Shown here: piece after piece, positions 44,930 to 49,821 of the stretch | Layout: the number at the start of each line of letters is the position of its first letter | Position numbering within the stretch: the stretch's first letter is position 1 | NCBI GenBank assembly: GCA_902779395.1 | Contig: CACZBK010000005.1 | Location: 119,197-183,196 of the forward strand | DNA from: an uncultured Lachnospiraceae bacterium | GTDB lineage: Bacteria > Bacillota > Clostridia > Lachnospirales > Lachnospiraceae | Reading direction: 5' to 3' | Length of the DNA: 64,000 bases | The notes under the pieces: generated by a model | What the model saw: only the letters and a program-made list of their open reading frames with translations | Database searches by the model: none | Told to the model about the DNA's origin: nothing | Translations under genes and position numbers: made by a program

Positions 44930-46774
44930 CTATTTGCTGAACCTGAACACCTCTCCCTTTGCCCTGAATGGCAGTCTGGCGCCAACAGGTATCAGAAAAG
45001 CGTGCTCTCTTTTCACATGCAGATCATCTTCTATCATCCCATCTGTGATGATAAGTATTGGAGCATCCTTCGGGAAATCCTTTGCCTCCTGTAAAATATC
45101 CACGCCCGGCTGCAGTATGGTACCGCCGCGCCCTCTCACTTCCACACGCCCTGCGATATCATCCGGTGCCAGATATCCCGCGTCATAAGCATCCGCATCG
45201 CAGAATACTACTCTGGCATATGGAACTTCCTTTGCCGCGCTGTAACTGGCGATCGCACCCAGTGCATATCCTATCATTTCCGCGTTCATCGAACCGGAAG
45301 TATCTACCACCACGCCAAAGGTCCTGTTGTATTCCGGTACATCTGCTGTCACATACCTGGGTCTTGGTATATCAGGCGTGCTGCCCTGTCTGCGGCTGGG
45401 TCTGGCATAAGTACGCTTCGCCTCTAACGGAAGAAAATGAGCATCGAACCATCTTCCCAGTTCCACATCCCATGGGATCGGCGGCATTGCAAGAGCTCTT
45501 ATCTCCTGTACCAGCCCGGCCGGAACCGTTCCCCTTCCGTATTTCAGATGATATTCCAGCCCCTGCTGCATCGCTCTTCGGCAGAACTCATCCAGATCCA
45601 TGGCTTTTCCTGCTGATATCCGCTCACCGTCTCCGATCACATCTCCCATACCGTTACCACGAAAAGTCGCCAGTTTCCTGTACTTCCGAAGATCGGTAAC
45701 AATACGGTCATAAATCTCCTCAGCAGACATTCCTTTCAGTTCCGCATCATACAACAGTCCGTCCTGTGGCATGGATCCCACATGCAGTTCATTCAGCCAG
45801 CCGTTTATCACATAATCACAGGCAACATTCCAAAGATATTTATCCCTTCCGTTACAGCGTGTATGATGCCCAAGACCGGCATGCAGATACTCATGCGCCA
45901 ATACAAACTTAAGCTCCTCTTCGTTAAGCCGCGCCGCAGGATTAATATATATCTCACCGCTGGCAGCATCTACTGCTGCCACCGATATCTCCTCTTTTCT
46001 GCAGAGTTCGGCATCTTCGATTATCTTAAATCCTGCTGCCATGCCGCCAAGGAGCGGGTAATGATTTATAAACCACTCTGCAGCCCTTGCGCCACGCCCT
46101 TTTTTGTTTACTGCATCCGGGTTATGACCTCCTGCCGTACTCACTGCCGCGGATACAGAATATGCCAATGCCCCCGCAAAGATCTCGGTCGGACGCCTGT
46201 TCCACCTGTAGATGTTTTCATACGTGCGCGGCTCATCTAAGCCCCTCATATCCGGCTGCCCCGCAATTGAAGTCCCCCACCAGCATCCTTCCGGAGCTCC
46301 TCTCTCCATCAGCTGCTGATAGATCGAATTCTCGTCCTTTCCGAGCTGTGAAAACACAGTTGTATCATTCAGCGGGTTTCTACCGAATTTGATCTCCTCC
46401 AAAAAACGCGTAATATAAATATCACACGCCACATTCCATATCATTTTGTCAAACTGTATCTGCCTGCTTATTTTCCCGTTATCGCCGATCCATTCCACCG
46501 CCGGCACTTTATCCGCGTCAAAATGGCCGAAAGCAAAATGCAGCTGACAATGCGCGATCAGAAAAGCCCATTCCTGCGGATCATGGGTGACATCTTTATT
46601 AAGAATGATATGTCCACTCGCATCTGCTATAGCAGAAGCCTTCTGCAGTTTATCTTTCTTGCAGATCAGCATCTCACCATACAAACGTGAAAACAGCGAA
46701 CTTTCCTTTATGATCTCCAGACCTTCCAATAAAGCTTCTTCATTCGGACTGATATGCTGCTGATTCTTTCCCAT
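44930..46774 (-). CDS. DUF2201-type metallopeptidase-like/VWA protein with duplicated N-terminal module
   Basis: 614 residues, longer than the usual 380-460 for the family (recalled). Two related modules come first. Module 1 (about 35-155) has HCQLH at 75-79 and WNVACDIY at 113-120. Module 2 (about 250-365) has HEYLH at 294-298 and WNVACDYV at 315-322. Only module 2 keeps the HExxH zinc motif. The C-terminal third is a VWA-like domain with the MIDAS start DTSGS (491-495) and a later ITDG. MoxR ATPases work with VWA proteins, and a moxR gene lies 1 bp upstream. A protease or metal-insertion partner in the RtcB operon is an inference. Confidence 0.88.
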   Translation of the reverse strand: MGKNQQHISPNEEALLEGLEIIKESSLFSRLYGEMLICKKDKLQKASAIADASGHIILNKDVTHDPQEWAFLIAHCQLHFAFGHFDADKVPAVEWIGDNGKISRQIQFDKMIWNVACDIYITRFLEEIKFGRNPLNDTTVFSQLGKDENSIYQQLMERGAPEGCWWGTSIAGQPDMRGLDEPRTYENIYRWNRRPTEIFAGALAYSVSAAVSTAGGHNPDAVNKKGRGARAAEWFINHYPLLGGMAAGFKIIEDAELCRKEEISVAAVDAASGEIYINPAARLNEEELKFVLAHEYLHAGLGHHTRCNGRDKYLWNVACDYVINGWLNELHVGSMPQDGLLYDAELKGMSAEEIYDRIVTDLRKYRKLATFRGNGMGDVIGDGERISAGKAMDLDEFCRRAMQQGLEYHLKYGRGTVPAGLVQEIRALAMPPIPWDVELGRWFDAHFLPLEAKRTYARPSRRQGSTPDIPRPRYVTADVPEYNRTFGVVVDTSGSMNAEMIGYALGAIASYSAAKEVPYARVVFCDADAYDAGYLAPDDIAGRVEVRGRGGTILQPGVDILQEAKDFPKDAPILIITDGMIEDDLHVKREHAFLIPVGARLPFRAKGEVFRFSK

Positions 46775-46775
46775 C

Positions 46776-47849
46776 TCATTCCTTCCTGTTGTTTACAAGC
46801 CTGGGCAGATCACGTACGATCTCCATCATAAACCAGTCCGGCAGTACCTCATTATCCTCTGCCGATACCACCATCTGCGCCAGCTCATAATTTATGCTGC
46901 TGAGCTCCTTGATCATCGCCTTTGCCCTGTGCGTAAAAAACTGCGTATCCTTATTCAGCTTTTCCTTGTTCTGCGGCAGTTCCATCATAAGCCTTGCGCG
47001 GAAAGACTGCGCCAGAAAATACAAAATATCCCGATCCTTCGGATCTGCAGGCCAACGCGCGTTTCCTTTAATGATCGCATTCAGGATGTTCTTATCATCC
47101 AGCGTCCTGCTGTAGGCAACAAACATCCCTGCATGCTGAGGGCTCACACTTCCGTATGCCAGTACCCGCAAGAGTTCCTGCGATATCTCATGTCCTTCTT
47201 CGCCTGCATGATATTCCTTAAGCGCATCACTTAACATATGCCAGCTTCTGGGCGTAGAATAAGGTTCCTCGCTCTTGGGCGGTTCGCTGAAAAGATGATC
47301 GGGACGCTGGCTTATATAATCGGTTACCCAGGGATGCAGAGCGTTTTCGTATGCCCATTCCAGCCACTGCGCCGTATCCGCCACCAGCTGCACATGAAAC
47401 ATCCGGTTTACCAGTGCGGAAGACATCGTCTTTACGATAGCTCCGTCCTGTGAACGATTCCCGGCGCCGATCACCACACTCCCTTCCGGCAGGTGGTATT
47501 CGCCTATCCTGTGTTCGTGGATCAGGCTGTAAAACGCTTTCTGCACTTCCTGGCTGCAGGCGTTGAGTTCATCCAGAAAAAGCACATAAGGCTCTTTCTT
47601 CGCGATCATCTTGGGCGGAAGAAATTCCGATGTTTCTCCGCTGATCCTGGGGATGCCTATGATATCCTCCGGTGCCAGCTGGCTTCCCAGAAGTGATACG
47701 CACTCCATGCCCACTTCATCCGCAAACTTCTGCACCAGAGCGGATTTCCCGATTCCCGGCGCTCCCCAGATGAACACCGGCCTTACCGGCGCAATATTTA
47801 AAAGTATCTCAAACAATTCCTTTTGTGTTACGGTAAATGCTAAATTCAT
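46776..47849 (-). CDS. MoxR-family AAA+ ATPase
   Basis: 357 residues. Walker A is GAPGIGKSA (29-37), Walker B is YVLFLDELNAC, sensor 1 is VIGAGNRS and an arginine finger region is VNRMFHVQL. This matches the MoxR group that acts as chaperone with VWA proteins. It sits between rtcB (1 bp upstream gap) and the VWA gene. Confidence 0.9.
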   Translation of the reverse strand: MNLAFTVTQKELFEILLNIAPVRPVFIWGAPGIGKSALVQKFADEVGMECVSLLGSQLAPEDIIGIPRISGETSEFLPPKMIAKKEPYVLFLDELNACSQEVQKAFYSLIHEHRIGEYHLPEGSVVIGAGNRSQDGAIVKTMSSALVNRMFHVQLVADTAQWLEWAYENALHPWVTDYISQRPDHLFSEPPKSEEPYSTPRSWHMLSDALKEYHAGEEGHEISQELLRVLAYGSVSPQHAGMFVAYSRTLDDKNILNAIIKGNARWPADPKDRDILYFLAQSFRARLMMELPQNKEKLNKDTQFFTHRAKAMIKELSSINYELAQMVVSAEDNEVLPDWFMMEIVRDLPRLVNNRKE

Positions 47850-48996: not shown

Positions 48997-49188
48997 TCAT
49001 CTCCAATCGTCATGTCTGTCCCTGTCCTTCTGCCTGCGCGCTTTTACGGATTCCGTTTTCTTCGCGCTCCTTCGCGGCTCATATTTCGGACAGTTCTTAC
49101 ACTTCTTCATATCAACTTTTACAAATCCTTTATTACAATCTTCACCTTTGCATACATAGTGAATGCAGGGATTCATTCTGTCTTTCAT
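48997..49188 (-). CDS. small Cys-rich basic protein in the rtcB operon
   Basis: 63 residues from the ATG at 49188 (GGAGGGTAACGAG upstream). The N-terminal half has five cysteines (CIHYVCKGEDC and CKNC), fit for a zinc knuckle. The C-terminal half is highly basic (RRSAKKTESVKARRQKDRDRHDDWR), fit for RNA binding. It ends 6 bp before rtcB. I do not recognise a named family. Confidence 0.75.
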   Translation of the reverse strand: MKDRMNPCIHYVCKGEDCNKGFVKVDMKKCKNCPKYEPRRSAKKTESVKARRQKDRDRHDDWR

Positions 49189-49265: not shown

Positions 49266-49308
49266 CAAAAAAACACCTTCGCCGTCTGCCTGACGAGCCG
49301 AGGTGTCT
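49266..49308 (-). terminator. attenuator terminator of the rtcB leader
   Basis: On the minus strand ACACCT (49306-49301) pairs with AGGTGT (49278-49273); inside, CGTC pairs with GACG around AGGCA. Seven T follow. It lies between the leader frame (49354-49431) and the first structural gene (49188), so read-through is needed for rtcB expression. Confidence 0.75.
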
Positions 49309-49353
49309 GTCATCCCTGCGTTATATTTTTAATTGGGAAATCCTATATGGAAA

Positions 49354-49431
49354 CTACCGCAAAAATACACCTGGGACAACTGTTGCCTCTGCTGTTCTCA
49401 TCATTCTGTTATTCATATATAAATGCAGCAT
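49354..49431 (-). CDS. 25-residue leader peptide of the rtcB operon
   Basis: ATG at 49429-49431 is preceded by AGAAAGGAGGACAAC. The peptide begins MLHLYMNNRMMRTAEATVV and ends PGVFLR. Its 3-prime coding end AGGTGTATTTTTG nearly copies the terminator 3-prime arm AGGTGTTTTTTTG. Thus the coding end can pair with the terminator 5-prime arm (6 bp, 49372-49367 with 49306-49301). A ribosome stalled early would leave this antiterminator free; one that finishes would cover it. This is inferred from the sequence, without any homolog check. Confidence 0.7.
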   Translation of the reverse strand: MLHLYMNNRMMRTAEATVVPGVFLR

Positions 49432-49470
49432 GTTGTCCTCCTTTCTGCAGCATGGTTTGATAGTTACAAA

Positions 49471-49526
49471 GAGACTCGTGCCTGTCTCTGATTTGTGAGT
49501 ATAGCCGAAACTTTTTTGTCTGTCAA
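49471..49526 (-). promoter_or_regulatory. consensus promoter of the rtcB operon with 5-prime hairpin
   Basis: TTGACA (49521-49526), 17 bp, TATACT (49498-49503) on the minus strand. A GAGAC/GTCTC hairpin (49471-49488) follows at the 5-prime end of the message. The leader to the first structural ATG is about 300 bases. Confidence 0.8.
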
Positions 49527-49551: not shown

Positions 49552-49583
49552 AAAAAAACACGAGGTCCATCCCCATGGTTTTC
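49552..49583 (-). terminator. terminator of the 77-residue gene, palindrome family member
   Basis: On the minus strand AAAACCATGGGG pairs imperfectly with CCTCGTGT and is followed by at least nine T. Its loop (ATGGA) and arms mark it as an ACCACGGGG-family element. Confidence 0.65.
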
Positions 49584-49587
49584 TTTT

Positions 49588-49821
49588 TTATCCGCGAACA
49601 AATCCGCATGTACTCCTGACGGGGCTTTCCTCACCGGATTCATAATTCGCCTTAAAAGACATATTGATATCCCTGATCTCACGCTTTCCGTCAATGTAAT
49701 CCTGATACATGTCGGCCAGACCACTTGCACATCCGTCACAGGCACCGTTTATATTCCCTATGGATTCGGCTACGATGCGTTCACGCTCCTGCCTTGTTGT
49801 ATCCTTGATAAGTATGCTCAT
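49588..49821 (-). CDS. small conserved-type protein with CDGC motif
   Basis: 77 residues, AAGGAGGATGAGTA before the start. N-terminus is helical (RQERERIVAESIGNINGACDGCASGLADMYQDYIDGKREIRDINMSFKANY). The CDGCA pair and the YQDYIDGKREIRDINMSF stretch recall a small Firmicute protein of unknown role often misnamed as a purine protein. No function assigned. Confidence 0.7.
   Translation of the reverse strand: MSILIKDTTRQERERIVAESIGNINGACDGCASGLADMYQDYIDGKREIRDINMSFKANYESGEESPVRSTCGFVRG

Follow-up and report, generated by a model that had tools for sequence, protein, structure and literature searches.

A probable ribosome-mediated attenuator with an asparagine-rich leader frame precedes rtcB RNA-repair operons in Lachnospiraceae

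The window (the whole 64,000-nucleotide stretch of an uncultured Lachnospiraceae genome analysed here) carries on its minus strand an rtcB operon preceded by a compact leader. An earlier sequence-only reading of this DNA had described a promoter, a 25-codon frame and a terminator ahead of this operon, and all of these elements are present in the sequence (Table 1). The terminator hairpin itself occupies 49307–49272, with a predicted energy of -18.4 kcal/mol (z -3.6), and is followed by the T run. Towards the end of the frame, the stretch AGGTGTATTTTTG (49372–49360) is nearly identical to AGGTGTTTTTTTG (49278–49266). A further hairpin that resembles a terminator and has a T run lies on the same strand just upstream of the leader promoter (49559–49577), and perhaps marks the end of the preceding minus-strand frame (49588–49821, 77 aa).

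Table 1. Elements of the leader and genes of the rtcB operon, in window positions.
Feature	Position	Strand	Basis or remark
Sigma-70-type promoter, TTGACA-17-TATACT	49498..49526	-	11/12 consensus bases
5' hairpin P1 (GAGAC..GUCUC, loop with GCACGA)	49471..49488	-	all nine genus leaders
Extended Shine-Dalgarno of the leader frame, AGAAAGGAGG	49437..49446	-	direct reading
Leader frame, 25 codons, MLHLYMNNRMMRTAEATVVPGVFLR; ATG at 49431, TAG at 49354	49354..49431	-	direct reading
Arm 1 (A), GGACAAC-AUG	49429..49438	-	duplex test (n = 37), pair-type tally (n = 47)
Arm 2 part M, CAGAGG	49386..49391	-	fold with ribosome at start and RNA ending before terminator 3' arm
Arm 2 part B, GUUGUCCC	49373..49380	-	alternative partners: arm 1 or arm 3 part C
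Mimic stretch proposed by the sequence-only reading, AGGTGTATTTTTG	49360..49372	-	contains GGUGU, kept in the genus
Arm 3 part C, GGGAUGAC	49309..49316	-	second partner of B; adjoins terminator
Intrinsic terminator	49266..49307	-	5' arm GACACCU (end of arm 3), 3' arm AGGUGUU (arm 4), U run
Cys-rich small protein, 63 codons, first gene past terminator	48997..49188	-	open reading frame
rtcB, 379 aa	47851..48990	-	PF01139, E 3.9e-55
AAA_5 (MoxR-like) ATPase	46776..47849	-	domain match
DUF2201 putative metallopeptidase with VWA-like domain	44930..46774	-	domain match

The Cys-rich protein has no match in Pfam, NCBIfam or PADLOC, and tblastn recovered it clearly at 11 of 46 loci that carry a comparable leader and weakly at a twelfth. 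Such proteins of 60–63 codons accompany rtcB in different positions, preceding the gene in the genus of the window and following it at loci L046 and L058. No prfH lies beside the rtcB of the window, its place being taken by the AAA_5 ATPase and DUF2201 genes, and none of 35 genomes of the genus gave a PrfH match over the cut-off. Across the 46 leader loci included in the neighbour-gene count (L064 was left out), prfH adjoins rtcB in at least 22; these gene counts are lower bounds because most loci extend no more than 1.5 kb past rtcB. Three PrfH proteins from leader loci were tested and all pass the TIGR03072 cut-off. The RtcB of the window gives matches to the PrfH-linked RtcB models that fall below the cut-offs (PRK09588, 136 of 407 bits; TIGR03073, 107 of 272 bits). 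Since the RtcB of L093, which does have prfH, is likewise below both (146 and 118 bits), these cut-offs may not suit this clade. It is possible that the MoxR-like ATPase and DUF2201 protein form an alternative partner set to PrfH. The combination of RtcB with both proteins, as at 44930–47849 of the window, was also observed at three loci with no detected leader (L044, L051 and L061). In PMC9223846, an RtcB2-PrfH operon is described as shielding E. coli from colicin E3, and repair of 16S rRNA by RtcB2 is discussed. The sequence-only reading had also remarked on the absence of RtcR, which holds for the whole genome: a PF06956 search returned no match there, while the E. coli control was positive.

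Conservation of the leader was assessed first within the genus. Of 98 genomes searched, 18 (the window's own among them) gave an RtcB match with E no worse than 1e-60, and nine of these, all of the same genus, encode an RtcB at least 77% identical to that of the window; the leader is present in all nine. A covariance model built from these nine leaders was run on 35 genomes of the genus; nine of them have a single strong match each (E below 1e-30), always at rtcB, along with five weak matches (E 0.34–0.92), one of them in the window's own genome. A tenth genome of the genus, L012, has a leader of different sequence and the same design ahead of an RtcB that is 58% identical. With L012, the genus thus has two types of rtcB; the L012 leader has the pairing GGAUGGCC:GGUCAUCC and a terminator of its own.

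Beyond the genus, we compared 161 distinct upstream regions drawn from family, order and named-genome searches, the last comprising the best 80 of at least 589 matches, with identical regions collapsed. The set excludes L015, L066, L075, L082 and L124 (short upstream DNA or no match) and the order-search matches G485 (a second copy), G628, G709 and G534. A search of these relatives for the short frame, which the sequence-only reading had put forward as a check, showed that a leader of the same design precedes 48 of the 61 rtcB genes whose product is at least 52.5% identical to that of the window, leaving 13 with none detected, and it was found at none of the 100 loci below 52.5% identity. One of the 48, L068, resembles a leader and was counted in this tally only, outside the folding, duplex and codon sets. 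Among the 80 top named-genome matches (of at least 589), seven of the nine leader loci are titled Lachnospiraceae, one Eubacterium and one unclassified; the titles of the matches ranked below these in the same 80 are mixed, with many Oscillospiraceae, Ruminococcus and other Clostridia and few members of other phyla.

A Shine-Dalgarno sequence and a short frame, predicted to be translated, are common to the remaining 47 leaders. A terminator hairpin was found in 44 of them, seven of the 44 being judged misplaced, and a promoter with at least 10 of 12 consensus bases in 31. The hairpin P1 is not universal and has an altered stem in L039 and L041, while GAAAGGAGG in the Shine-Dalgarno sequence shows no variation across the nine genus leaders. 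The L004 leader (about 936–1070) has an inserted C past arm B, which puts the last part of the frame out of register but leaves the arms intact; this is either a real change or an assembly error. A frame of 20–32 codons, a terminator and arm pairing at z ≤ -2.5 occur together at 33 of the 47 leader genes vs 2 of 111 other genes (uncurated long frames that have a Shine-Dalgarno sequence), a comparison that is not selection-free, as the 47 leaders were chosen by eye and partly on duplex score and frame. The feature detector requires ATG, so that frames starting otherwise go undetected.

Four arms can be delineated in these leaders. Arm 1 consists of the Shine-Dalgarno sequence and start region and is complementary to arm 2 in the last part of the frame, a pairing that could conceal the ribosome binding site. 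Arm 2, inside the frame, comprises part M (AGAGG-like) and part B (GUUGUCC-like). Arm 3 consists of part C (GGAUGAC in the window; GGAURRC-like in general) and, at most a few bases further on, the 5' side of the terminator, whose 3' side is arm 4. B can pair with either arm 1 or C, and M with the terminator 5' side (GAGG:CCUC in the window). In these predicted pairings (1:2, 2:3 and the terminator 3:4), the leader looks like a trp-type four-arm attenuator.

The pairings were evaluated by duplex energy in 37 of the 47 leaders, which also form the folding set; outside it are L047, L059 and L060, where no terminator was found, and L062, L064, L091, L095, L166, L169 and L170, where the terminator calls were judged implausible. 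The 1:2 duplex has a mean of -15.7 kcal/mol, against -8.6 for shuffled sequences and -12.5 for mismatched partners, and the 2:3 duplex a mean of -24.9, against -15.2 and -18.3 (n = 37); the choice of leaders bears on the comparison with shuffles, whereas that of matched with mismatched partners is less touched by it. No permutation matched the real partners (0 of 5000 for 1:2 and 0 of 5000 for 2:3), and the result was the same in 26 leaders without the nine related ones of the genus. Furthermore, the 1:2 pairs vary on both sides among lineages (GGACAAU:AUUGUCC, GGGCAAU:AUUGCCC, GGUCAU:AUGGCC and GAAUGACUAUG:CAUAGUUGUUC). The sequence-only reading had suggested a check for covariation of terminator and antiterminator; in the predicted folds, the mimic pair it had in mind is not the one used.

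Refolding with defined ribosome positions shows how these arms may compete. When only arms 1 and 2 have been made, the Shine-Dalgarno sequence is paired at a probability of at least 0.5 in 32 of 37 leaders. With the start masked by a ribosome and arm 4 unmade, the partner of the terminator 5' arm lies upstream of B in 35 of 37 leaders and inside B in the other two; in none does it lie 3' of B, the site of the mimic stretch. C:B reaches at least four pairs in 30. As long as arm 4 is unmade, the terminator 5' arm and the frame pair at 0.43 on average, and at 0.70 once the start is masked; the change exceeds 0.1 upwards in 20 of 37 leaders and downwards in none. For the complete leader, the mean terminator probability is 0.70 in free RNA, 0.58 with the ribosome at the start and 0.92 with the ribosome at the stop (n = 37), this last value being expected because arm 2 is then out of the fold. 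With the ribosome at the start, the terminator is less probable by more than 0.1 in 13 of 37 leaders and more probable in 6, with strong switchers (L012, L039, L063, L088, L093 and L168) and leaders that move in the opposite direction (L005, L010, L041, L043, L090 and L167). The window leader does not switch at equilibrium, its terminator standing at 0.97 in each ribosome state tried, and in the genus leaders other than L005 and L010 the terminator remains at or above 0.88 both free and start-masked. Since the terminator of the window wins at equilibrium, a switch there would have to come from folding in step with transcription. A two-terminator reading, with the Shine-Dalgarno hairpin as the first terminator, was also considered; it fits L039 and some genus members and was set aside, as a U run after arm 2 is missing from most of the leaders inspected.

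Given these results, we regard it as probable that the rtcB leader is a ribosome-mediated, trp-type transcription attenuator induced by early stalling, a model that rests on comparison and predicted folding. The proposal of a ribosome-controlled attenuator before rtcB, already made for the window, thereby gains support, with both frame and terminator conserved. With no ribosome on the leader, arm 1 would pair with arm 2, leaving arm 3 free, so that the terminator would form and rtcB would be off. A ribosome at the stop codon would cover arm 2 and again favour the terminator. Judging from the geometry, a ribosome held within the first ~15 codons would sit in the 1:2 loop and block the 1:2 pairing; arm 2 would then pair with arm 3, and RNA polymerase would read through into the RNA-repair operon.

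The composition of the frame bears on the trigger. Asparagine accounts for 17.3% of codons 2–15 in 42 leaders vs 4.8% in a control set of 179 gene starts, likewise uncurated long frames that have a Shine-Dalgarno sequence, and half of the leaders contain at least three asparagines vs 2.8% of these controls. The level is 16.7% in 30 lineage representatives. The asparagine codons fall mostly at positions 3–15 and are rare beyond, as control codons within the 1:2 loop would be, which suggests that the early asparagine-rich codons may serve in that capacity. This richness makes stalling at asparagine codons the favoured trigger, which could reflect scarce usable tRNA-Asn or ribosomes that decode asparagine poorly; more broadly, early elongation might be slowed in general. 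A trigger through damage to all queuosine tRNAs was weighed and discarded: over codons 2–15, Tyr and Asp show no increase and His goes only from 1.0 to 2.0%, compared with 4.8 to 17.3% for Asn.

The broader alternative amounts to the same attenuator with no choice of codon, in which any slowdown of early elongation, by a drug or by damage, induces rtcB and asparagine is a by-product of an A-rich, unstructured loop. We hold this to be a real possibility, albeit somewhat short of an even one. The loop is 47% A, three of the 30 representatives have no asparagine in codons 2–15, and Thr (11.9 vs 6.6% in leaders and gene starts), Met, Arg and Gln are also raised, so that asparagine is the strongest bias and not the sole one; in addition, armZ of P. 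aeruginosa offers a precedent in its induction by ribosome-targeting antibiotics (PMC12057347). Against it, asparagine codons exceed what composition predicts (102, of which shuffling accounts for a mean of 55 and a maximum of 75 in 300 shuffles) and are a property of this reading frame, the other two yielding 16 and 64. Lysine codons, moreover, are fewer than composition predicts (46 vs 87), although close to the gene-start level (7.8 vs 8.8%).

The remaining explanations dispense with this attenuator altogether or build it from other parts. As a ligand riboswitch, the leader would bind a small molecule through P1 and its conserved segments, and the frame would be incidental. The strong sequence conservation within the genus, where P1 and its GCACGA loop are kept, would fit, but many other genera lose P1 and its loop yet keep the frame, the Shine-Dalgarno sequence and the arms, the in-frame asparagine bias favours translation, and Rfam gave no match in the window at the gathering score and none in the leader at E up to 1; we consider this reading very unlikely. 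Arrest peptides of the erm or msr style control genes by stalling the ribosome through the nascent chain, with or without a drug, and the sequence VVPGVF near the end of the frame in six of nine genus leaders, with VVRGVF in two, could be read as such a peptide. Beyond the genus, however, the peptides differ and the arm is read in other frames, arm 2 being translated as VV, GLS or GCP depending on the leader (by reading of the peptides), which indicates that RNA and not peptide is conserved there. Within the genus, too, arm positions are mostly fixed, third codon positions included, as for RNA, and control by the peptide sequence itself is very unlikely. The antiterminator originally proposed for the window was GGUGU, by the stop codon, paired with the terminator 5' arm. 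The near-identical AGGTGT stretches behind that idea are real and GGUGU is kept in all nine genus leaders, but folding does not support it as the conserved antiterminator: the pair has a probability of 0.00–0.01 at full length in the nine genus leaders, with every 5' boundary tried, and is used in none of the 37 leaders refolded before the terminator 3' arm exists. In the genus consensus fold, GGUGU instead pairs with GCACC ahead of the Shine-Dalgarno sequence, a pairing that is impossible in the window itself and in L004. This version of the switch is thus extremely unlikely. We also dropped direct sensing of intact 16S rRNA anti-Shine-Dalgarno ends, because failed ribosome binding predicts the off state in this anatomy.

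The proposed attenuator can be set against several known systems. Attenuators of the trp and his type have four arms (1:2, 2:3 and 3:4), control codons before arm 2 and a stop codon near arm 2. The rtcB leader shares the four-arm plan, early codons ahead of arm 2 and a stop near it, but it controls RNA repair rather than amino acid synthesis, and its arm 1 is the Shine-Dalgarno sequence and start region itself, so that the off state should silence the leader too. In antibiotic-induced attenuation of vmlR and hflXr, termination in a leader is relieved on ribosome inhibition; the likeness to the rtcB leader lies in this relief, and the difference in the targets, which are resistance factors and not rtcB. 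Most work on the induction of bacterial RNA repair concerns RtcR. RtcR-controlled rtcBA is a damage-induced RtcB operon, as the one described here would be, and is activated in Salmonella by tRNA fragments (PMC7790460), but it depends on a CARF-domain activator, and the window's genome has no RtcR.

The nearest precedent comes from P. aeruginosa, where the leader peptide PA5471.1 is proposed to control armZ, described as an RtcB-like RNA ligase gene, by attenuation in response to impaired or stalled ribosomes; the available portions of that paper urge more study (PMC12057347), and those of another describe translational attenuation (PMC3575510). The order PA5471.1–armZ (PA5471)–prfH (PA5470) resembles the present loci in having a leader peptide before an RtcB-like ligase gene and an adjoining prfH. 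It differs in belonging to another phylum and in that ArmZ is described as an efflux-operon anti-repressor, and the descriptions in these portions, on which the comparison rests, mention neither asparagine codons nor a Shine-Dalgarno-hiding arm. The general idea that an RtcB-like gene is controlled through ribosome sensing is therefore not new, which weakens the novelty that the sequence-only reading had seen in a ribosome-sensing switch for RNA repair. A search of the open-access literature found nothing on the rtcB leader itself. As far as that literature shows, what appears to be new is a covarying rtcB leader across many genera, with the Shine-Dalgarno sequence as predicted arm 1 and asparagine-rich early codons.

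Taken as a whole, a group of rtcB genes, many of them beside prfH, seems to be switched by the position of the ribosome on a short asparagine-rich frame. More tentatively, and we think it rather doubtful, the switch may form part of a repair feedback loop, in which cleavage of tRNA-Asn, or damaged ribosomes that stall at asparagine, would hold the leading ribosome in the 1:2 loop and so open transcription of the ligase. If so, the ligase, accompanied by PrfH or else by the MoxR-like ATPase and the DUF2201 protein, would mend the very damage that triggered it, and the translation machinery would itself detect breaks in its RNA without needing a dedicated regulator. The leader, if confirmed as an attenuator and if the P. 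aeruginosa leader proves unrelated, would suggest that attenuation of RtcB-PrfH arose more than once. If true, the model would point to what signals RtcB-PrfH repair in this group of rtcB genes, titled at seven of nine named loci as Lachnospiraceae, a family of the gut and rumen, and would yield a testable claim on which RNA breaks.
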